A stretch of DNA of 64,000 nt from Elioraea tepidiphila DSM 17972 (GTDB taxonomy: Bacteria; Pseudomonadota; Alphaproteobacteria; Acetobacterales; Acetobacteraceae): positions 1-64,000 of the forward strand of contig NZ_KB899935.1 in NCBI RefSeq assembly GCF_000378465.1. The letters are read 5' to 3'. The position numbers were made by a program, and so were the translations under genes. Each line of letters starts with the position of its first letter. Position 1 is the first letter of the stretch. Positions 1 through 32,705 of the stretch are shown one piece after another. The notes beneath the pieces were generated by a model, which saw nothing but the letters and a program-made list of their open reading frames with translations, was not told where the DNA came from and ran no database searches.

Positions 1-144
1 AAGCGTCCAGGCCGTACAGCCGATCTTGCCCGCGATCGACGTCTCAGCCGCCCATCGCGACGGATGCTCGTGCTCGTGATCCCGCACCATCCGCACCGCG
101 CGCTCGCGGACCTCAGGCGAGAACTTGTTCGTCGTCTTGCTCAT
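1..144 (-). CDS. IS3-family transposase OrfA, partial (runs off the left edge)
   Basis: The first 48 codons of a small helix-turn-helix transposase subunit are visible, starting at ATG 144 behind a GGAGG ribosome-binding site. The N-terminus begins [20 protein letters not shown] and continues with a [13 protein letters not shown] stretch, which is typical of OrfA of IS3-family elements (the HTH that binds the terminal repeats). In this family OrfA is usually joined to an OrfB DDE integrase by programmed frameshifting; OrfB would lie outside the window. The gene sits just inside a terminal repeat ending near 197. Whether the element is complete cannot be seen. Confidence 0.85.
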
Positions 145-171
145 GCAGCCTCCACCCTCTCAGGAGTTGGA

Positions 172-197
172 GCCTCCGGCAAAACCGGAGCGGTTCA
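172..197. repeat. Terminal inverted repeat of the IS3-family element
   Basis: The minus strand from 197 reads TGAACCGCTCC followed by GGTTTTGCCGGAG. This is the terminal-repeat style of IS3-family elements and includes a short internal palindrome CTCCGG/CCGGAG. The partner repeat is not in the window, so its exact length cannot be set. Confidence 0.6.
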
Positions 198-313
198 CCG
201 GCGATCCGCCGATGACCACCCCCAGGACCTACACCACCGCCAGGGACAGGACCGTTGCCGGCAATCTCCGCACCGCCGGAGTGGTAGTTTGGGTACAGCA
301 ACAGAATCCGCAT
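198..313 (-). pseudogene. bchE: bchE 5' remnant (anaerobic Mg-protoporphyrin ester cyclase), truncated
   Basis: ATG 313 opens a frame reading MRILLLYPNYHSGGAEIAGN. This is the highly conserved N-terminus of BchE, the cobalamin- and radical-SAM-dependent oxygen-independent cyclase that forms ring E. In intact proteins the next residues are a conserved WPPAW motif. Here homology stops after about codon 20 (near position 254) and a glycine-rich, non-BchE reading follows to the IS end at 197. The gene is therefore broken by insertion or deletion, although the rest could lie beyond the element. An intact aerobic cyclase, acsF, is present at 9267-10394. The remnant lies on the same strand as, and downstream of, the crtB/orf160 run. 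Confidence 0.75.
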
Positions 314-407
314 GACGTTCGCTCCCCGACCGGATGCAGGAAAGAAGCTGTAACGGCCACGCGTCGATCAGGCGTTGCGGTGGATCAATCCTGCAGTGCC
401 GATCCGG

Positions 408-890
408 TCAGGCCCGCACCCCGCTGCGGCTCACCGTTGGAGCGCCGGTCGTCGGATCCTGAGTCACACTCTGTACCAATGGCGAAGGGAAGGAGCGGTA
501 GCGCGTCTTCAGCACGAGCCACGTGGACCAGGCACCGATCAGGAACAGGAACCCCGCCAGATCAACCAGTGAGAACCAGCGATCCGCCCCGGTCAGGACG
601 TAGGCGAGCACGAGCTTGAGCGCCATGATGGCAAGGGCGCCGATCATCAACGGCGGCACGACATCGCCCAGCACGGCCAGGGACGAATGCAGTGCAGCGC
701 GGGGGTCGGGGAGTCCGGCCGCTTCGAGCCGACGCGTTTCGGCGATGATGGCGTTGCGTCGTGTCACCGCTGTCCAGATCAGGGCGATACCGGCGGCGAA
801 CAGCACCAAGCCGATCACGTGTCGCAACGGGCGTCTCCATCCTGCGGATGATGTCTCGTCAACGGTCCCCTCCGGGCATCTCCCCTCCAC
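408..890 (-). CDS. Small membrane protein of unknown function at the end of the PGC superoperon
   Basis: The 160-residue frame has three hydrophobic segments (about residues 24-42, 68-97 and 108-126) and a polar C-terminal tail. It looks like a small integral membrane protein. I do not recognise a family; its length resembles TspO, which neighbours crtB in some phototrophs, but the three-segment pattern and lack of TspO motifs argue against that. The frame starts at GTG 890, only 2 nt after the crtB stop, so it is probably co-translated with crtB. An in-frame TTG further in is an alternative start. It is the last intact gene before the bchE remnant. Confidence 0.6.
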   Translation of the reverse strand: MEGRCPEGTVDETSSAGWRRPLRHVIGLVLFAAGIALIWTAVTRRNAIIAETRRLEAAGLPDPRAALHSSLAVLGDVVPPLMIGALAIMALKLVLAYVLTGADRWFSLVDLAGFLFLIGAWSTWLVLKTRYRSFPSPLVQSVTQDPTTGAPTVSRSGVRA

Positions 891-892
891 CC

Positions 893-1948
893 TCAGCGGA
901 CGACGCGCGCCATGGCGAGGCGCCCAGTGCGATCGCGTCGCTCCAACCGATCATAGAGGCCGACGAGCCAAGCGATCCGCGAATCGAGGTCATTCCGGGA
1001 ACGCCCATGCCGCGGAACGGCCAGCGCGGCCTCGACCAGGAATCGCGTGGCGGGGAGGGGCTCGTCGTCGAGCCGTGCCGTCGACCATGAGGCCGTGCGG
1101 GCAGCGCTTGCAGCAAGCAGCGCAAGCTTGCGTCGGGTCGGCACAACGGCACGACGGTCGACCGAGTTGCCGCCATGGCGCTCCACTTCCCGGCCGATCT
1201 CGGCGTAGATGAGGCGGGCGGCACCGATTCCGGCCCGGCAGGACGCCGGCAGACGTGCAATTCCGGCCTCGGCGCGCCGGTACAGCCGATCCGCTTCTGC
1301 GAGCAGAGCTGCGATCACCGTACCGAGCGCCGGCGTGAAGCGCGGCGCGGCAAGAAACGCGTCAGGATCGACGCCCACCGCCGCCAGCCAGTCGAGTGGC
1401 AGGTAGAGACGGCCCGCGCGGGCATCTTCGCCGACATCGCGCACGATGTTGGTCAGCTGCATGGCGACGCCGAGATCGCAGGCGCGCGCCAGCACGTGCG
1501 GATCGCGCGAACGCATCAGCAGCGCCATCATCACACCGACGGTCCCAGCGACCCGCGCGGCATAACCGTGCAGCGTGGCCAGGTCGGGGTAGCGGCGCAT
1601 CTCGGCGTCCCACAGGAATCCATCGAGCAGCGCCTCCGGCAGCGCGCGCGGGATCGCGTGGTGCGCGACCGCCTCGGCGAAGGCCCGGTCGGCGGCGATT
1701 GCGTGCGGTCTGCCGGCGTAGGCGCGATCCAGCCGATCATGCAGCCGGGCGAGCGCGGCGGCCGGATCGGCATCGAGATCGATCGCATCGTCGGCAAGCC
1801 GGCAGAACGCGTAAATCGCGCACGCGGGATCGCGCACGCGCGCGGGCAGCAACAGCGAGGCGGCGAAGAAGGTCCGTGAGCCGCCGCGCAGCAGCGCGCG
1901 GCAGGCGGCCATGTCGGCGGGGCTTGGTGCGTCAGACGGGAGCGACAT
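893..1948 (-). CDS. crtB: Phytoene synthase CrtB
   Basis: CrtB condenses two geranylgeranyl diphosphates to phytoene, the first committed step of carotenoid synthesis. The 351-residue protein carries both Asp-rich, Mg-diphosphate-binding motifs of squalene/phytoene synthases: RLADDAIDLDAD near residue 50 and NIVRDVGEDARAGRLYLP near residue 170. The length is normal for the family. ATG 1948 lies 17 nt inside the end of crtI, so the two genes are translationally coupled. The pair shares the PpsR-type operator found upstream of crtI. Later carotenoid genes (crtC, crtD, crtF) are not in this window. Confidence 0.95.
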   Translation of the reverse strand: MSLPSDAPSPADMAACRALLRGGSRTFFAASLLLPARVRDPACAIYAFCRLADDAIDLDADPAAALARLHDRLDRAYAGRPHAIAADRAFAEAVAHHAIPRALPEALLDGFLWDAEMRRYPDLATLHGYAARVAGTVGVMMALLMRSRDPHVLARACDLGVAMQLTNIVRDVGEDARAGRLYLPLDWLAAVGVDPDAFLAAPRFTPALGTVIAALLAEADRLYRRAEAGIARLPASCRAGIGAARLIYAEIGREVERHGGNSVDRRAVVPTRRKLALLAASAARTASWSTARLDDEPLPATRFLVEAALAVPRHGRSRNDLDSRIAWLVGLYDRLERRDRTGRLAMARVVR

Positions 1949-3461
1949 CGGGCACCACCGTGTCGAGCACCTTGGCCGAACAGAGCACGCCGGGCAGCCC
2001 CGCGCCCGGGTGCGTACCCGCGCCCACCAGATAGAGGCCGGCGATCTCCTCGCTCACATTGTGTGGGCGGAACCAGGCGCTCTGCATGAGCACCGGCTCC
2101 AACCCGAACCCGGCACCGCGCGGCGCGAGATAATCGGCCGCGAAGTCGCGCGGGGTGAGCACACGCGAGGTCACGACCTCGCGCTCCAACCCGGGCAGCA
2201 GCGTCGATGAAAGCCGGCGCGCGATCATCTGTCGGAACGGTTCCGCCTCCGCTGCCCAGTCGGTTCCGCTGTCGAGATTGGGCACCGGAGCGAGGGCATA
2301 GAACGCATCGCAGCCTGGCGGGGCGAGCGCCGGATCGGTCGCGGTCGGGCGGTGGAGGTAGATCGAGACATCGGTGGCGAGCCGCTTGCGCGTGAAGATG
2401 TCCGCGAGCAGGTCGCGATAGCGCGGTCCGAGCAGAATCGTATGGTGACCGACCTCGTCGTAGCGGCGGCGCGTGCCGAAATACCAGACGAACAGCCCCA
2501 TCGAGGTGCGCGTCCGCGCGAGCTTGCGGTCGGTCCAGCGGCGGCGGTCTCCGGCAGGAACGAGCCGGGCATAGGTGTGCATGGAATCCGCGTTCGAGAC
2601 GACGATCTCCGCGGCGATCGTTTCCCCATCGGCGAGGCGGACGCCGGTCGCGCGGCGATCGCGCACGGTGATGCCGGCAACCTCCGCGCCGCAACGGAGC
2701 GTCCCGCCCTGGCGCGCAATCAGCCCGGCGAGCCCGCGGACCAGCGCGCCCGTGCCGCCCATCGCGTAGTGCACGCCCCAGCGCCGCTCCAAGGCCGCGA
2801 TCAGGCAGTAGACGGCACTCGCTGCGAAGGGATTGCCGCCGATCAGCAGCGGGTGGAAGGAGAGCGCGATGCGAAGGCGCGGATCGCGCACGTGGCGGGC
2901 GACGGTGGCGTGCACGCTTTGCCAGGCGCGCAGCCGGATCAGGTCCGGGGCGACACGCAGCATGTCGGTGAACCGGCCGAACGGCACATGCCCGAGCTCT
3001 TCGAAGCCGATGCGGCAGGTCTCCGCCGAGAGCCGCATGTAGCGCTCGTAGCCGTCGAGGTCGGCCGGGCTCAGCCGCGCGACCTCGGCGCGCATCGCCG
3101 CCGCATCGCCGGAGCAGGCGAACACCGTGCCGTCATCGAAGCGGATCCGGTAGAACGGATCGCAGGGCACGAGTGTCACGTCGTCGGCGAGGCGCCGTCC
3201 GGCGAGCGCCCAGAGCTCCTCGAACAGGAACGGCGCCGTGACGATGGTCGGACCGGCGTCGAAGGTGAAGCCGTCCTGGCGGAACACGCGCGCCCGGCCG
3301 CCCGGCTGATCCAGCCGTTCCAGCACGGTGACGCGCCAGCCGCGCGCGCCAAGCCGCACCGCGGCAGCGAGCCCACCAAAGCCGCTGCCGATCACCACCA
3401 CGTGCGGCCGGGTGTCGGGTGCCCGCGATGGACGCGGCGGGGCGTCTGTCAATATCAACAT
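1932..3461 (-). CDS. crtI: Phytoene desaturase CrtI
   Basis: CrtI is an FAD-dependent desaturase that converts phytoene to neurosporene or lycopene. The 509-residue protein starts MLILTDAPPRP and shows the N-terminal dinucleotide-binding motif VVVIGSGFGGLAAAVRLGA followed by the family PGGRARVF stretch. The C-terminus contains the typical LYLVGAGTHPGAGLPGVL motif. ATG 3461 was chosen because the FAD motif follows directly; the open frame continues upstream, but into bchO. A 55-nt gap separates it from bchO and contains a TGT-N12-ACA palindrome, so crtI-crtB may have a PpsR-controlled promoter of their own inside the superoperon. Confidence 0.95.
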   Translation of the reverse strand: MLILTDAPPRPSRAPDTRPHVVVIGSGFGGLAAAVRLGARGWRVTVLERLDQPGGRARVFRQDGFTFDAGPTIVTAPFLFEELWALAGRRLADDVTLVPCDPFYRIRFDDGTVFACSGDAAAMRAEVARLSPADLDGYERYMRLSAETCRIGFEELGHVPFGRFTDMLRVAPDLIRLRAWQSVHATVARHVRDPRLRIALSFHPLLIGGNPFAASAVYCLIAALERRWGVHYAMGGTGALVRGLAGLIARQGGTLRCGAEVAGITVRDRRATGVRLADGETIAAEIVVSNADSMHTYARLVPAGDRRRWTDRKLARTRTSMGLFVWYFGTRRRYDEVGHHTILLGPRYRDLLADIFTRKRLATDVSIYLHRPTATDPALAPPGCDAFYALAPVPNLDSGTDWAAEAEPFRQMIARRLSSTLLPGLEREVVTSRVLTPRDFAADYLAPRGAGFGLEPVLMQSAWFRPHNVSEEIAGLYLVGAGTHPGAGLPGVLCSAKVLDTVVPDVAPV

Positions 3462-3471
3462 CAGCGTTGAG

Positions 3472-3489
3472 TGTAACGGTAGCTTGACA
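3472..3489. promoter_or_regulatory. PpsR/CrtJ-type operator upstream of crtI
   Basis: The sequence TGTAACGGTAGCTTGACA fits the PpsR/CrtJ consensus TGT-N12-ACA exactly. It lies in the only gap of more than a few bases in the 20-gene minus-strand run, 11 bp upstream of the crtI ATG. PpsR is encoded at 23933. No convincing -10/-35 pair is visible beside it, so the promoter position is uncertain. Confidence 0.6.
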
Positions 3490-3516
3490 TGCTGTGCCAG
3501 TGAATCCGCAGCGTGG

Positions 3517-4404
3517 TCAACGGTCGACCGGCGCCAGGGCCGTCTCCTCGATGAGCGCCGCCACCAGATCCGGACGCTCCTCGTGGGCGAGATGACCGAG
3601 CTCAGGCAAGCGAACAATCCGCGCCGACGGCACCAGCGTGCGCACGCGCTCGGCATCCGTCGGCGGGACGGTGCGGTCGTTGGTGCCCACCATCAGCACG
3701 AGCGGCACGGCGAGCCTGGGCAGGTCGCGCGCGAGGCCCGCGAGGTCCCACGCCGCCATCATGTTCAAGGCGGCGGCGACGTGCCCAGGGCGGCGCAGCA
3801 GCCGCGTGTAGAAGTCGACATTCGCAGGCGGGAGTGTCGAGCCGGTTCCGGCCAGGAGCCGTTCCACCGTCGCGCGGTCAGCCGCCTGCCAGGACAGGAA
3901 CCACGGCACGACCGGCAGACTCACCATGAAGCGCGCGAGACCCGAGAACCACGGCAGGTCGCCCGGGCCGTTGCGGATCGGCACCAGCGCGCCGTTCAGC
4001 GCGATGATCGTGCGGGGTGACAGGATGCCGTCCAGCGTCATGCGCGCCAGCACCGCGGCGCCGGCGGAGTGTCCGACCGCGACGTCCGGCGTCTGGCCAA
4101 GCGCGGCGAGCAGCGCGGCGACACGCCGCGCCATGCCCGGCAGGGTGAACCCCTCCTCGGCCGGCGCCTCGGTGAAGCCGTGACCCGGCAGATCCGGCGC
4201 GATGACGGTGAAATGGCGCGCGAGCAGCGGCAGCAGGCCGGCCCAGGAATGCGTCGCCGCCCCGGTGCCGTGCAGCAGCAGGATCGCCGGGCCTTCGCCC
4301 ATCACCTGGACATGCCAGACGATCCCGCCGGCGGGCACGAATTGGCTCGCGCTCCGGTTCGGCCAGTCCCGTCCGTCATGCGCCCAGTCCGGGTAGCGCG
4401 TCAT
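3517..4404 (-). CDS. bchO: BchO, Mg-chelatase-associated alpha/beta hydrolase
   Basis: This 295-residue alpha/beta hydrolase has the oxyanion-hole motif LLLHGTGAATHSW (about residues 45-57), the nucleophile elbow VGHSAGA (about 110) and a late catalytic His in LGHLAHEERP. It belongs to the BchO family, found next to bchD/bchI in photosynthesis clusters; the exact role in Mg-protoporphyrin formation is unknown. ATG 4404 overlaps the bchD stop as ATGA. The stop at 3517 is followed by the short gap with the crtI operator. Confidence 0.9.
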   Translation of the reverse strand: MTRYPDWAHDGRDWPNRSASQFVPAGGIVWHVQVMGEGPAILLLHGTGAATHSWAGLLPLLARHFTVIAPDLPGHGFTEAPAEEGFTLPGMARRVAALLAALGQTPDVAVGHSAGAAVLARMTLDGILSPRTIIALNGALVPIRNGPGDLPWFSGLARFMVSLPVVPWFLSWQAADRATVERLLAGTGSTLPPANVDFYTRLLRRPGHVAAALNMMAAWDLAGLARDLPRLAVPLVLMVGTNDRTVPPTDAERVRTLVPSARIVRLPELGHLAHEERPDLVAALIEETALAPVDR

Positions 4405-6140
4405 CGTGATGCCTCGATATCCGCGCGTACTGCATGGCTCAACGCGGTCGCGTCGGCGTAGGGCAGGGCGAGGTAACGCGCCCCCATCTCGCGCGCGATC
4501 CGTTCCGCTGTCGGTTGCGGTCGTGGTGCGGTGTCGATCAGCAGGCAGGCCCGGCCGGACGCGCGCAGCCGACGCGCCGCGTCCAGCGCGTCCTGCTCCG
4601 CCTGCGGACGTCCAGGCGTGCCGTCGCGGGCCACGTTGGCACGGCCATCGGTGAGCAGCACGGTGATCGGTGTCCGACCCTTGCGGGCGACGCTGTCGGC
4701 GACCCCCTCGATCATGTCGAGTGCTGCGGCGAGCGGCGTGCCGCCGCCGCCAGGCAGCCCGGCGAGGCAGCGCCGCGCGCGCGCGAGCGAGCCGGTCGGT
4801 GGCAGCACGAGCTCGGCCGTGCGGCCGCGAAAGGCGATCAGCGCCACCGTGTCGCGGCGCACATAGCAGTCGGCGAGCAGGAGCTCGACCGCACCCTTGG
4901 CCTCGGCGAGCCGGGCCAGCGCCGCTGAGCCGGAGGCATCGACCGCGAAGATGGTCGTCGTCAGCGATGGCGCCTTCAAACGCACCAGCCGGATATCGTC
5001 GCGGCGCACGATCACGCGGCGCGCGGCATTTGCTGCTTCGAGCCGGCGCAGCGACTGCCACGGGGCCGCCGCGCGTAAGGTCTCGACCAGGGCCAGACGC
5101 TGGCCGCTGCGCAGCGTGCCGAGACGCGTGCCGGCCGGACGGCCACGCCGTACCGTACGTCGCTGCGCGCCGGCCTTCCCATCGGCACGCGGGCCGCTGC
5201 GCGGCGCCTCGCCTAGCCGAAGGGCGGCGAGCAAGGCCGAGGGGATCGCCGCCCTTGCGGCCGCCACGACCACATCCTCCAACGGCACCGCATCCTCCCT
5301 CGCGCGCTGCTCGTCAGGCGGTGGTGACGGGTCAGGCGCGGTCGGCGCATGGGCTGGCGGCTCGTCGGGCAGCGGCAGTCGCGTCGCACGGGGTGCGAGC
5401 ACGAGCCGCGCCGCCAGCGCCACATCCGCCTCATCGACCCGATCGCGCCCCGCCAAAGCGGCCGCGGCGCGCGCGACACGAACCGCCTGCAGCGGCGCCC
5501 GCAGGGATGCGATGCCGAGCGCGGCAGCTGCGCTACAGAGCGCATGCAGCACCTGCGAATCGGCCGTGACGGACGCGAGATGCGCGCGCGCCTCGTCGAT
5601 CGCCGTACCAGGATCGGGCGACGGCAGGGTGCCGGCCTCGAGCGTGAGATGGATCGCGAGCCGCTCGGCGAGCGCGGGCGGTGCGCGTTCGTCCTCGGCA
5701 AGACCCTCGTCGAGCGCGATCACGCCGAAGCGTGACGGCAGGCGCAGATCGATCCCGTCGCGCTGCATCGCGACTTCGCCGGCGTCCATCGCCGCGGCGA
5801 TCCGCGCCGCCGTGCCGGGCGGCAGCCGATCGGCCATCGCGAGCAGCAGAGCGCCGCCGTCGCTCGCCGCGAGAATGCCACGCTCCGCGATCGGCCGGCC
5901 GGCGGCAAGGGTCGCGGCCAGATCGAGACCGCCGAGCAGACGGTCGTCAGGCACGGCCGGGGGCACGCGACGGAGCGGGGTGTGCGCGGGCCAGAGCGCG
6001 CGCAGCGCGGCGAGCCATCGATCGCGCGCGGGACAAGGCCCCGCCCGCAGCAGCACGCCCGTGCCGACCGGATCGACCGCGAAGATCGCAGCTGCGGCCT
6101 GCGCATCCGACATCGGCGAGGGGATCACCCCGCCCGACAT
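4401..6140 (-). CDS. bchD: Magnesium chelatase subunit D
   Basis: BchD forms with BchI the AAA+ motor that drives Mg insertion into protoporphyrin IX by BchH. The roughly 579-residue protein has a degenerate AAA-like N-terminal half, an acidic/proline-rich linker near residues 265-285, and a C-terminal von Willebrand A domain with the MIDAS-like motif FAVDASGSAAL near residue 400 and TDGRANVARDG later. ATG 6140 is used here; an in-frame TTG at 6146 would overlap the bchI stop and is also possible. The stop overlaps the bchO ATG. Confidence 0.93.
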   Translation of the reverse strand: MSGGVIPSPMSDAQAAAAIFAVDPVGTGVLLRAGPCPARDRWLAALRALWPAHTPLRRVPPAVPDDRLLGGLDLAATLAAGRPIAERGILAASDGGALLLAMADRLPPGTAARIAAAMDAGEVAMQRDGIDLRLPSRFGVIALDEGLAEDERAPPALAERLAIHLTLEAGTLPSPDPGTAIDEARAHLASVTADSQVLHALCSAAAALGIASLRAPLQAVRVARAAAALAGRDRVDEADVALAARLVLAPRATRLPLPDEPPAHAPTAPDPSPPPDEQRAREDAVPLEDVVVAAARAAIPSALLAALRLGEAPRSGPRADGKAGAQRRTVRRGRPAGTRLGTLRSGQRLALVETLRAAAPWQSLRRLEAANAARRVIVRRDDIRLVRLKAPSLTTTIFAVDASGSAALARLAEAKGAVELLLADCYVRRDTVALIAFRGRTAELVLPPTGSLARARRCLAGLPGGGGTPLAAALDMIEGVADSVARKGRTPITVLLTDGRANVARDGTPGRPQAEQDALDAARRLRASGRACLLIDTAPRPQPTAERIAREMGARYLALPYADATALSHAVRADIEASR

Positions 6141-7211: not shown

Positions 7212-8423
7212 TCAGGCCGCGCGCTTCAGGTGCAGGTCCGACCAGATCGCGGCGAGCGCATCGACCAGATGATCCATGTCCTCCGAGCTGTGCAGAGGCG
7301 AGGGCGTCACGCGCAGCCGTTCCGTGCCGCGCGGCACGGTCGGGTAGTTGATCGGCTGCACGTAGATCGCGTAGCGGTCGAGCAGGATGTCGCTGATCCG
7401 CTTGCACTGCACGGGGTCGCCCACCATCACGGGAACGATGTGGCTCGGGTTCGCCATGTGCGGCACGCCGATCGCATCGAGACGGCGCCGGAGTTCGGCC
7501 ACGTTCGCGTGCATGCGCGCGCGCTCCTCAGCGGAGCGCTTGAGATGGCGGATCGCGGCGCGCGCGCCGGCGGCGACCGCGGGCGGGATCGCGGTGGTGA
7601 AGATGAAGCCCGAGGCGAAGCTGCGCACGAAGTCGATGAGGTTCGCCGAGGCCGCGATGTAGCCGCCGACCACACCGAAGGCCTTGCCGAGCGTGCCCTC
7701 GATCACGGTCAGACGGTGCGCCACGCCGTCGCGCTCCGAAATGCCGCCGCCGCGCGGGCCGTAGAGCCCGACCGCGTGCACCTCGTCGAGATAGGTCATC
7801 GCGCCGTGCGCCTCGGCCACATCGCAGAGTTCGGCGATCGGCGCGATGTCGCCGTCCATCGAGTAGACGCTCTCGAAGGCGACCAGCTTCGGCCGCTCTG
7901 GATCGAGCGCCGCGAGATGCCGGTTCAGATCCTCGGGATCATTGTGCTTGAACACGATCCGCTCGGCCTTGGAGTGGCGGATGCCCTCGATCATCGAAGC
8001 GTGGTTCAGCGCATCCGACAGCACGACGCAGCCGGGCAGCCGCGCGGCGAGCGTCGAGAGTGTCGCCCAGTTCGACATGTAGCCGGAGTTGAACAGCAGC
8101 GCGGCCTCCTTGCCGTGCAGATCGGCAAGTTCCTGTTCAAGCTTGACGTGATAGTGGTTCGTGCCGGCGATGTTGCGGGTGCCGCCCGCGCCCGCGCCGC
8201 AGCGGTCGATCGCCTCGTGCATCGCGGCGAGCACCGCCGGGTGCTGGCCCATGCCGAGATAGTCGTTGGAGCACCACACGGTGACCTCGGCCGTGCCCTT
8301 GGCGCGGTGATGCGTCGCCCGCGGGAACTTGCCCGCCTGGCGCTCGAGATCGGCGAAGTGGCGATAGCGCCCCTCCCGGCGGAGGCCATCGAGGGCGGAG
8401 CGGAAGAAGGCTTCGTAGTTCAT
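7212..8423 (-). CDS. hemA: 5-aminolevulinate synthase
   Basis: HemA condenses glycine with succinyl-CoA to 5-aminolevulinate, the first tetrapyrrole precursor in alphaproteobacteria (C4 pathway). The 403-residue protein starts [20 protein letters not shown] and contains the fold-type I PLP features: [18 protein letters not shown] around residue 215 and [11 protein letters not shown] with the Schiff-base lysine at about residue 247. ATG 8423 has a GGAGG site and overlaps the puhE stop as ATGA. Its position between puhE and bchI ties precursor supply to the pigment operon. A second hemA elsewhere in the genome is possible. Confidence 0.95.
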
Positions 8424-9259
8424 GTTGCCTCCGTGTGTGCAACGGCGCGGGCAAGCGGCGCCCGCCGGTGGGAACTGGGTTGGGACGGCTCGTCGGGAAG
8501 ATGTCCGGCGCGTCCGCCGAGGCTCCAGGACCAGAGCGCCTCGGATCGGATCGGCAGCACCAGGAAGGCATGCTCCAGCGCGCCGAGTGCTGCGAGCGTG
8601 CCGAGGATCGCCAGCGCCGTGGCATCGACGGGTGAGGCCTCGGCGGCGGCGGCGAACAGCAGCACCGCGGCGAGCAGGGCCGCGGCGAAGGCCGGCGGGA
8701 ACAGCGGGTTCATCCGGCCTGCACTGAAGTGGCTCGCGAGGTAGCGCATGTGCTCGGGCAGCAGCCCCGCATAGGTGTTGCGCACGCCGAGAAAGATGTT
8801 GAGCTTGGTCGAGGTTCGCATGGCCCAGAGCAGCAACATGGTCCAGGCGCCGGTCATGGTCGCCCCACCCCAGGAAAGCGCGAATACCAGCGCGGTCAGC
8901 GCGAGGATGGTGAGTTCGTGCCAGAGGATCGCCCCGACCGCGAGGCGGAACCGGGCGGCAAGCGACAGGCCAGCCGGTGCCGCAGCGCGGTTCGGGCCAG
9001 TGATCAGGCCGGTGAGGAAGGTGAGTTCCACCCAGGCCCAGACCATCAGCCCGCAGGCGAAGGAGAGATAGACCGCGCCGGCGGACGTCTCGCTGGCCGT
9101 CGCCGCGATGCCGGCGAGTGCCACGACCAGCAGCCCGCTCGCGGCTGTCACACTCCTGCGCCGCGCCCGCCGCGGCAGTCCGTTCAGCCAGAAGATCGCG
9201 CCTGTGCCGAACCACCACGCGAACAGCGTGGCGGCGATGGCGAGCGCGTTCGCGGTCAC
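8420..9259 (-). CDS. puhE: Photosynthetic complex assembly protein PuhE
   Basis: This 279-residue polytopic membrane protein belongs to the PuhE family (DUF3623), needed for normal reaction-centre and light-harvesting complex assembly in Rhodobacter. About seven hydrophobic segments are visible, with the conserved central stretch [17 protein letters not shown] and the following [12 protein letters not shown]. The start is GTG 9259, 7 nt after the acsF stop. The stop overlaps the hemA ATG. The acsF-puhE-hemA order is a known PGC arrangement. Confidence 0.9.
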
Positions 9260-9266
9260 GGCACGC

Positions 9267-10394
9267 CTACCAGGCCGGGCTCAGCCGCACCTGTGCGGGC
9301 AGCGGCGCGTGCTTGCCCGGCAGCAGGTAAAGGCGGAGGAAGGTCGCGGCAGCTGAAAGACCGAGTCCGAAGCGGCGCAGCCTGCCGCCGAAACCGCCTT
9401 GCTTCTTGGCCTCGCCCATGGCCTCGGTGATGCGGAACATCCGCTCGAGACCGCGCAGGAACGCTGGATTGTCGATGTCCAGCGTTACCGGGAAGACCTG
9501 CTTCGAGACCTCCGTCGTGATGCGGAATACCTGCATGTCGTACTCGGTCGGATCCAGGCCGAGCGCCTTGTGGAACTCGGGGCGCGCATGGTCGCGTACG
9601 AACATGGTGGCGAACACGGCGAGCTGGAAGAAGCGAACCCACAGCTTGTTGAGGCCGGTGAGCATGTCCGGGTTGGCGCGCATCAGCAGCGCGAAGGCCT
9701 CGCCGTGGCGGAACTCGTCGTTGCACCACTTTTCGAACCACTTGAAGATCGGGTGGATGCGGTTCTCGGGGTGCTTCTCCAGCTGGCGGTAGATCGAGAT
9801 GTAGCGCGCGTAGCCGATCTTCTCGGACAGGTAGGTCGCGTAGAAGATGAACTTCGGCTTGAAGTAGGTGTACTTCTTCGCCTTGGTCAGGAACGAGAGA
9901 TCGACGCCGACGCCACAGTCCTTCAGGCTGTCGTTGATGAAGCCGGCATGGCGGCTCTCGTCGCGCGCCATGTAGCCGAACAGCGCCTTCATGTCCGGGT
10001 TGGAGGCGCGCTTCTTGATCTCGGCATAGAGCACGCAGCCCGAGAACTCGGCCGTAACGGAGCTCACCAGGAAGTCGAGGAATTCCTTGCGCAGCCCCTC
10101 CGGCAGGTCCTCGAGCCGGAACGCGTCGAACTCGTCGGTGCGCGTGAAGTGTCCCTTGTTCGGGTCGGACTCGAATTCGGCCATCAGCCGGTCCCAGTCC
10201 TCGCGGATCGGGGCGACGCTCATCTTGTCCATGGCGTCGAAGTCGGTGGTGTAGAAGCGCGGCGTCAGGACCGTGTCCTGCAGCGCGAGCTTGGTCGTCT
10301 CGTTGACCGGCCTTCGCCCCGTCGCGCGCTCCGCGGCGACATCGGCGATCGTCTCGTTCAGCGCCTTCTCCGGTGCGGGCGTCACGTCATACAT
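9267..10394 (-). CDS. acsF: Aerobic Mg-protoporphyrin IX monomethyl ester oxidative cyclase AcsF
   Basis: AcsF is the oxygen-dependent di-iron cyclase forming the isocyclic ring E of bacteriochlorophyll. The 375-residue protein contains two histidine-bearing iron-ligand motifs, [10 protein letters not shown] and [11 protein letters not shown], plus the conserved [13 protein letters not shown] segment near residue 45. ATG 10394 ([12 protein letters not shown]) was chosen; it overlaps the end of the upstream small gene by 8 nt. Because bchE survives only as a fragment at 198-313, this appears to be the only functional cyclase in the window, which fits an aerobic lifestyle. Confidence 0.95.
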
Positions 10395-31298: not shown

Positions 31299-32705
31299 AT
31301 GGCCCAGCCGTCCGCCGTCCTTCCCCTCGAACCGGCGCGCCGCGACCCCGTGATCGCGGCCTTGCGTGCGCGCTTCGGCGATCGCTGCTCGACCGCCGCC
31401 GCGGTGCGCGAGCAGCATGGCCGCGACGAGTCCTGGCACGCCCCCGCGCCGCCCGACGCGGTCGTGTTCGCCGAGACGGTCGAGGAGGTGCAGGAGGTCG
31501 TCCGGCTCTGTGCGGCGCATCGCGTGCCGGTCATTCCGTTCGGTACCGGAACGAGCCTGGAGGGCCATGTCGCAGCCTTGCAGGGCGGGGTGTCGCTCGA
31601 TGTGTCGCGCATGAACCGCGTGTTGCGCGTGAGCCCCGAGGACCTCGACTGCACGGTCGAGCCGGGCGTGACGCGCAAGCAGCTGAACACGCATCTGCGC
31701 GACACCGGCCTGTTCTTCCCGATCGATCCCGGCGCCGATGCCTCGATCGGCGGCATGACGGCGACGCGCGCCTCAGGCACCAATGCGGTGCGCTACGGCA
31801 CGATGCGCGAGGTCGTGCTCGGGCTGTCGGTGGTGCTGGCCGACGGCCGGCTGGTGCGCACGGGTGGCCGGGCACGCAAATCCGCCGCCGGCTATGACCT
31901 GACGCGCCTGTTCGTCGGCAGCGAGGGCACGCTCGGCGTGATCGTCGGCATCACGCTCAGGCTGTTCGGTGTGCCCGAGCGGATGGCCGCCGCGGTCTGC
32001 TCGTTCCCCGAGATGGGTGCTGCCGTGCGCACCGTGATCGAGACGATGCAGATGCAGGTGCCGCTCGCGCGGATCGAGCTGCTCGACGAGGTGCAAATGG
32101 CGGCGTGCAACCGCTTCTCGAAGCTTTCCTATCCCGAGACACCGACGCTGTTCCTCGAGTTCCACGGCACCGAGGCGGGGGTTGCCGAGCAGATCGAGAC
32201 GGTGCAGGCGATCGCCGCGCATCACGGCGGCGGCGCGTTCGCCTTCGCCCACGAGGCCGAGGCGCGCAACCGGCTCTGGCAGGCGCGCCACGAGGCCTAT
32301 TATGCGGCGCTGGCGCTGCGTCCGGGCGCCAAGGGCTGGCCGACCGATGTGTGCGTGCCGATCTCGCGGCTGGCCGACTGCATTCTCGAAACCAAGCGCG
32401 ACCTCGCCGAGAACCGGCTGCTCGCCCCGCTGGTCGGGCATGTGGGCGACGGCAATTTCCATCTCGTCTTCGTGGTCGATCCGGATGACGCGGAGGAACT
32501 CGCGCGCGCTTCGGCCGCGAACGACCGCCTGGTGATGCGCGCACTGGCGATGGACGGCACCTGCTCCGGCGAGCACGGCGTCGGCTATGGCAAGATGCCG
32601 TTCCTGCTCGCCGAGCACGGCGAGGCGCTGTCGGTGATGCGCGCGCTCAAGCAGGCGTTCGATCCGCTCGGCATCATGAATCCGGGCAAGATCGTCGCCG
32701 CCTGA
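31299..32705 (+). CDS. FAD-linked D-lactate/glycolate dehydrogenase (GlcD/Dld family)
   Basis: The 468-residue flavoprotein has an N-terminal FAD-binding PCMH domain (VIPFGTGTSLEGHVAAL, FPIDPGADASIGGMTATRASGTNA, LFVGSEGTLGVIVGITL) and the C-terminal metal-binding motif HVGDGNFHL near residue 380 plus the terminal NPGKIVAA. It oxidises D-lactate or glycolate and feeds electrons to cytochrome c or quinone; the sequence alone does not decide which. Its stop abuts that of the convergent lipoprotein gene with no intervening terminator. Confidence 0.88.
   Translation: MAQPSAVLPLEPARRDPVIAALRARFGDRCSTAAAVREQHGRDESWHAPAPPDAVVFAETVEEVQEVVRLCAAHRVPVIPFGTGTSLEGHVAALQGGVSLDVSRMNRVLRVSPEDLDCTVEPGVTRKQLNTHLRDTGLFFPIDPGADASIGGMTATRASGTNAVRYGTMREVVLGLSVVLADGRLVRTGGRARKSAAGYDLTRLFVGSEGTLGVIVGITLRLFGVPERMAAAVCSFPEMGAAVRTVIETMQMQVPLARIELLDEVQMAACNRFSKLSYPETPTLFLEFHGTEAGVAEQIETVQAIAAHHGGGAFAFAHEAEARNRLWQARHEAYYAALALRPGAKGWPTDVCVPISRLADCILETKRDLAENRLLAPLVGHVGDGNFHLVFVVDPDDAEELARASAANDRLVMRALAMDGTCSGEHGVGYGKMPFLLAEHGEALSVMRALKQAFDPLGIMNPGKIVAA

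Follow-up and report, generated by a model that had tools for sequence, protein, structure and literature searches.

A truncated bchE and nested insertion sequence ends in the photosynthesis gene cluster of Elioraea tepidiphila: the probable remains of a lost bchE-bchJ pair

The control of bchE has been described in R. sphaeroides, where FnrL and CrpK bind upstream of the gene and activate a bchE-lacZ fusion, the activity of which is reduced when the T of the TCAA at -57 is changed; in the fnrL mutant, the bchEJGP transcripts are higher, not lower (PMC4263372, in the part of the article available). In the available portion of a 2025 review (PMC12654162), the majority of aerobic anoxygenic phototrophs are stated to be without bchEJ in the cluster or altogether, and for these phototrophs the absence and its likely reason are described, not the molecular route. 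As regards Elioraea, the accessible sections of PMC8781829 report that all strains compared there, E. tepidiphila included, make bacteriochlorophyll (BChl) a, although in this species the pigment initially escaped detection; E. tepida is stated there to carry acsF together with bchE, and it is for E. tepida that the main text names bchE, once. The locus described here resembles the phototrophs covered in the available portion of the review in that bchE and bchJ are missing together while acsF is kept, in a BChl-producing alphaproteobacterium. Unlike the cases in that portion, E. tepidiphila keeps a bchE stump and a putative control box beside identifiable insertion sequence (IS) ends.

The assembly of E. 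tepidiphila DSM 17972 comprises 4,304,237 bp in 56 contigs and is estimated to be 100% complete. The window, i.e., the whole stretch of 64,000 nts analysed here, corresponds to positions 1-64,000 of contig C26, and its position 1 is the contig end, with nothing readable to the left. On the minus strand, a frame running from 313 to 116 opens with MRILLLYPNYHSGGAEIAGN, which corresponds to residues 1-20 of BchE (positions 254-313). Seventeen of these 20 residues (85%) are identical to the BchE start encoded at the syntenic position of four Elioraea genomes (G001, G003, G004 and G005) and of G010, which belongs to another genus of the same family. The N-terminal signature HPNYHSGGAEIAGN of BchE (TIGR02026), by which the sequence-only reading had correctly recognised the frame, is present at the syntenic place with residue 7 deviating. 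This residue is a Tyr in the relic and a His in all 10 other distinct BchE N-termini among the loci examined; no mention of His7 as a known functional residue was found in the available part of PMC13142503. Tyr7 is perhaps a mark, albeit a weak one of a single residue, of relaxed constraint or older decay. When the whole genome was searched with the BchE of E. thermophila at E<=1, the sole match was the relic itself (query residues 1-23, window 245-313), and the BchE family model (TIGR02026) has no match in the readable assembly at E<=1e-3, the cobalamin-binding and radical-SAM body being absent. Judged by its sequence, the segment 254-313 is a BchE relic and not a BchE. A second bchE was searched for and not found in the readable assembly, of which the relic is the sole BchE match, in agreement with the earlier proposal that the oxygen-independent cyclase had been lost and AcsF left alone.

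The homology to bchE stops at the edge of a mobile element. Positions 253 to 197 on the minus strand are identical, over 57 of 57 bp, to C23:83988-84044, the terminal 57 bp of an IS256-family (Mutator) element, and the C23 and window sequences diverge at the edge of this element. The break proposed from the sequence alone is hence real, but what had been read as unrelated sequence following it is this IS256-family end. Downstream frames of the C23 copy match PF00872 (Transposase_mut), a match also found on a piece of C24; the C23 copy consists of broken frames, and the window has the terminal 57 bp alone. Elements of the IS256 family have inverted repeats and an 8-9 bp target repeat. The right end of the element was not found in the readable sequence, and a candidate full element from G002 was discarded, as the match there is a 58-bp end alone.

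Base 197 is common to the IS256-family end and to the left end of an IS3-family element (positions 1-197, minus strand), whose orfA starts at 144 and which is cut by the contig end. The IS3 end that had been placed at 197 is supported by two further copies in the genome that start at the same base, one of them identical over 197 of 197 positions (C2 left end) and the other at 98%, and by the matches to PF01527 (HTH_Tnp_1) on the C2 right-end copy and to PF13683 (rve_3) on the C19 right end. The C19 right piece is tied to the left piece by a common inverted repeat, no complete copy having been read, and the 48-aa orfA start of the window matched nothing alone. Elements of the IS3 family have TG...CA ends, inverted repeats and a 3-4 bp target repeat; this one has a 27-bp inverted repeat and TG...CA ends, and no matching target repeat was found among the readable ends. 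An IS3-family insertion point 56 bp into the IS256-family end, together with a bchE homology that stops at the outer edge of this end, rules out the possibility that one IS3 insertion alone caused the break. The sequence-only reading, which had seen an IS3 element beside the relic, is altered in that the bchE break falls at an IS256-family end and in that bchJ, in addition to bchE, was not found.

The frame had been said to stop at the IS end near 197; it continues instead into the IS3 element, where a stop codon at 113-115 ends it. The resulting hybrid frame of 66 codons (113-313, minus strand) is composed of bchE codons 1-20, the IS256 end and the IS3 leader, overlaps the orfA start and has no Pfam match. 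Predicted folding of the junction RNA is within chance expectation (z -1.18, with 30 of 200 shuffles folding equally well). Since each of the two IS pieces has a copy elsewhere in the genome that it matches at 100% identity, the insertions and the loss of bchE would seem to be recent, as had been proposed; by comparison, the DNA of Elioraea sp. Yellowstone (G006), the closest by AcsF among the 6 named relatives compared, is ~15% different over 5.6 kb of the cluster. Homogenisation between IS copies would leave the same identity pattern as a recent insertion.

Comparison of the locus in relatives, already suggested by the sequence-only reading, uncovered an intact bchE followed by bchJ in Elioraea. 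The order hemA-bchI-bchD-bchO-crtI-crtB-h408-bchE is found in full in G001 and G005, and the available parts of G003 and G004 conform to it. bchE is full length in G001, G003, G005 and G010 and in two pieces at contig ends in G004, and is found, whole or in pieces, in 4 of the 6 other Elioraea genomes, the two without it being G006 and G002 (75% complete). Neither of these two informs on the loss. G002 also lacks acsF and crtB matches, and G006 was dropped for dating the loss because bchE, bchJ and crtB are all without a match there and a draft gap is likely, window 200-5466 (from inside bchD to bchE) giving in that genome five matches only, of 29-86 bp. E. thermophila YIM 72297 (L028, L157) is like E. 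tepidiphila in the gene order up to bchE, in 17 of the 20 first residues and in a box that differs by one base; unlike the relic locus, it has complete bchE and bchJ genes followed by a convergent membrane-protein gene.

Around the relic, the minus strand of the window encodes crtB (phytoene synthase, 893-1948), so named from its best NCBIfam match, which is under the curated cut-off, and crtI (phytoene desaturase family, 1932-3656), the frame of which is longer than the gene. Between crtB and bchE lies a gene, h408, for a small membrane-protein-like product (408-890, minus strand) that has 46-49% identity to genes at the same place in 4 Elioraea genomes and no match in NCBIfam or Pfam; it was kept after bchE was lost. 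Also encoded in the window are magnesium chelatase subunits, BchM, BchL, BchN, a BchB-like protein, BchF, PuhA, PuhB, PuhC and PuhE. The hemA frame (7212-9218, minus strand) extends 265 codons upstream of the ALA synthase part. This long frame is probably not a fusion, because PuhE is encoded there (8420-9259) in another frame.

Upstream of the relic, a TTG-N8-CAA palindrome, TTGATCCACCGCAA, is located at 375-388 on the minus strand, its first base 75 nts upstream of the relic ATG. Such palindromes at promoters are FNR/FixK-type binding sites, and we take the regulator of this box to be of the same class. A TTG-N8-CAA motif occurs 70-79 nts upstream of the bchE start in the relic and in 13 of 13 intact loci examined, several of which are closely related to each other; these are 13 of 14 non-duplicate intact bchE starts, L180 having been omitted for sharing the N-terminus of L178. 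Of the 4 other Elioraea loci, 3 have the identical 14-mer and one has it with a single base changed. As for chance, the motif has 3 matches in the 64-kb window and appears in 1.4% of simple base shuffles of the 160-bp upstream stretch. The box is a probable control site of the lost bchE, suggesting that the low-oxygen switch was kept in the relic. It resembles the FnrL/CrpK-bound bchEJGP operon of R. sphaeroides, as described in the available part of PMC4263372, in having an FNR-type site a few dozen bases upstream of bchE; unlike that system, the E. tepidiphila box starts 75 nts upstream, is predicted and has no bchE after it.

It is conceivable, though highly improbable, that the IS3 transposase is now expressed from this orphaned low-oxygen promoter. 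In favour of such an arrangement, the box, the bchE start and the uninterrupted hybrid frame all point towards orfA, the start of which is overlapped, and no terminator-like site was found between the box and orfA; against it, no sigma-70-type promoter match was found there or anywhere in positions 1-900. If true, falling oxygen would lead to more transposition of this IS.

The loss extends to bchJ. Among the loci with bchE (n=16), the DNA reaches past bchE in 14, and in all 14 bchJ lies within ~250 bp after it. The BchJ of E. thermophila, which found its own genome as positive control, gave 0 matches in the E. tepidiphila genome, where a retained copy would be expected to show up, given the 72-78% identity of BchJ between Elioraea loci. 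Of 80 AcsF loci, a single one, from Geminicoccaceae (L186), combines a bchJ match with no bchE in the DNA examined, and bchE and bchJ are consequently not always together. In E. thermophila, the gene convergent after bchJ encodes a membrane protein, presumably DUF2189-like, whose E. tepidiphila homologue is located at C7:86344-87111 with a different 3′ neighbour, which we take to be TctC-like (L047). In Elioraea sp. Yellowstone (contig C326 of G006, L048), the same gene adjoins a glycolate-oxidase-like gene homologous to window 31299-32705, so that this junction is different in each of the three species.

On the far side of the IS3 element, the readable ends of all contigs were searched for bchE and bchJ and, besides the stump, gave matches only at E 0.39 or worse. 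Five readable contig ends bear the right end of this IS3 kind; neither bchE nor the interior of the IS256 element follows any of them, and the 3-4 bp beside the left end recur at none. Inverted-repeat matches on C44 and C50 were omitted from these five, C50 bearing a relative (73%) that has a left end of its own and C44 two facing repeats. In view of what flanks the readable right ends, a deletion or a recombination between IS copies probably came after the nested insertion. More generally, many contig ends of this genome finish in a few common repeats, one end of ~250-280 bp being present in 12 contig ends, and these repeats are probably further IS elements.

Taken together, the locus is very probably what remains of a bchE-bchJ pair that lay at the end of the photosynthesis cluster and was lost via insertion sequences and deletion or rearrangement, in an organism where AcsF makes BChl. 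We infer that an IS256-family element would have inserted after bchE codon 20, followed by the insertion of an IS3-family element 56 bp inside it, and that a deletion or rearrangement involving the repeats would then have removed the remainder of bchE and all of bchJ. BChl would be made via the oxygen-dependent AcsF, whose gene lies at a distance of 9 kb within this cluster, and the FNR/FixK-type site and the bchE start would be left as orphans.

A nested disruption without any deletion, in which the rest of bchE and bchJ lie beyond the IS elements in assembly gaps or in unreadable short contigs, is very unlikely. It draws on the facts that position 1 is a contig end, that many contigs end in repeats and that contigs C52-C56 (1,098-1,562 bp, 6,720 bp together, 0.16% of the assembly) are read as N. 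The longest of these contigs (1,562 bp) nonetheless falls short of the ~1.67 kb that the missing bchE segment measures in E. thermophila, and although parts of bchE, or bchJ, could fit in them, the two genes form ~2.4 kb of single-copy DNA, more than any N contig could hold; the absence of both from the readable contig ends, the lack of a bchJ match in the genome and the absence of the IS256 interior beyond any readable IS3 right end also argue against it. A false join of the bchE start to unrelated repeats during assembly is hardly credible: the DNA from 253 to 1 is indeed repeated in the genome, as such a chimera would have it, but the promoter region, crtB and their neighbours are syntenic with relatives, and a false join alone does not explain the genome-wide absence of the bchE body. 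Another explanation is that the natural population has bchE and that the type strain lost it under aerobic cultivation. This seems rather unlikely; the identity of the IS pieces to other genome copies, which suggests very recent events, would fit it; against it, Tyr7 in place of the His7 found elsewhere is a weak hint of older decay. Loss in laboratory culture concerns the timing and is compatible with a loss of the pair by nested insertions and deletion.

The aerobic cyclase gene acsF is intact at 9267-10394 (minus strand), as had been claimed, and matches TIGR02029 with an E-value of 1.1e-148 (494.8 bits, cut-off 192.5). Its start was placed where similarity to the AcsF of Elioraea sp. Yellowstone sets in (residue 29 of the listed frame), and the two proteins are 92% identical over 375 residues without gaps. 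Both ExxH motifs, which are the diiron motifs of AcsF, are kept as ESRH and EFRH. E. tepidiphila would thus seem to be a natural knock-out of bchE and bchJ in which BChl a is still made, and its BChl synthesis would be restricted to oxic conditions because AcsF needs O2. Overall, the observation and the main line of interpretation of the sequence-only reading hold, and its mechanism was incomplete.

Across 397 genomes of the family, in which some drafts are scored without a gene through gaps, AcsF (E<=1e-3) was found in 120 and BchE (E<=1e-100) in 54, both being present in 51, AcsF only in 69 (including E. tepidiphila and G006) and BchE only in 3. AcsF without BchE is a common state in this sample. 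The three genomes with BchE and no AcsF match (G010, G089 and G405) are the reverse of the usual, with draft gaps possible, and one 7.4-Mb genome (G172) has two full-length BchE matches ~2.9 Mb apart on one contig. The loss in E. tepidiphila, in line with this common state in the family and with the bchEJ absence described for most aerobic anoxygenic phototrophs, follows a known trend. A literature search on bchE with insertion sequence and pseudogene found no paper, and the stump is unreported within the literature found on Elioraea with bchE and acsF, where bchE appears only for E. tepida. What is new is the preserved stump, the insertion sequence route and the orphaned control site, the AcsF-only state itself being ordinary.

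The stump shows one probable route by which bchE and bchJ are lost, i.e., nested insertion sequences followed by deletion, and the box that survives points to FNR-type control of the lost bchE. As E. tepidiphila is cultured and has relatives with an intact pair, pigment synthesis can be compared directly between them as oxygen falls. In this photosynthetic bacterium from hot springs, a loss that is common in the wider family has left a clear fossil in the form of the bchE relic.
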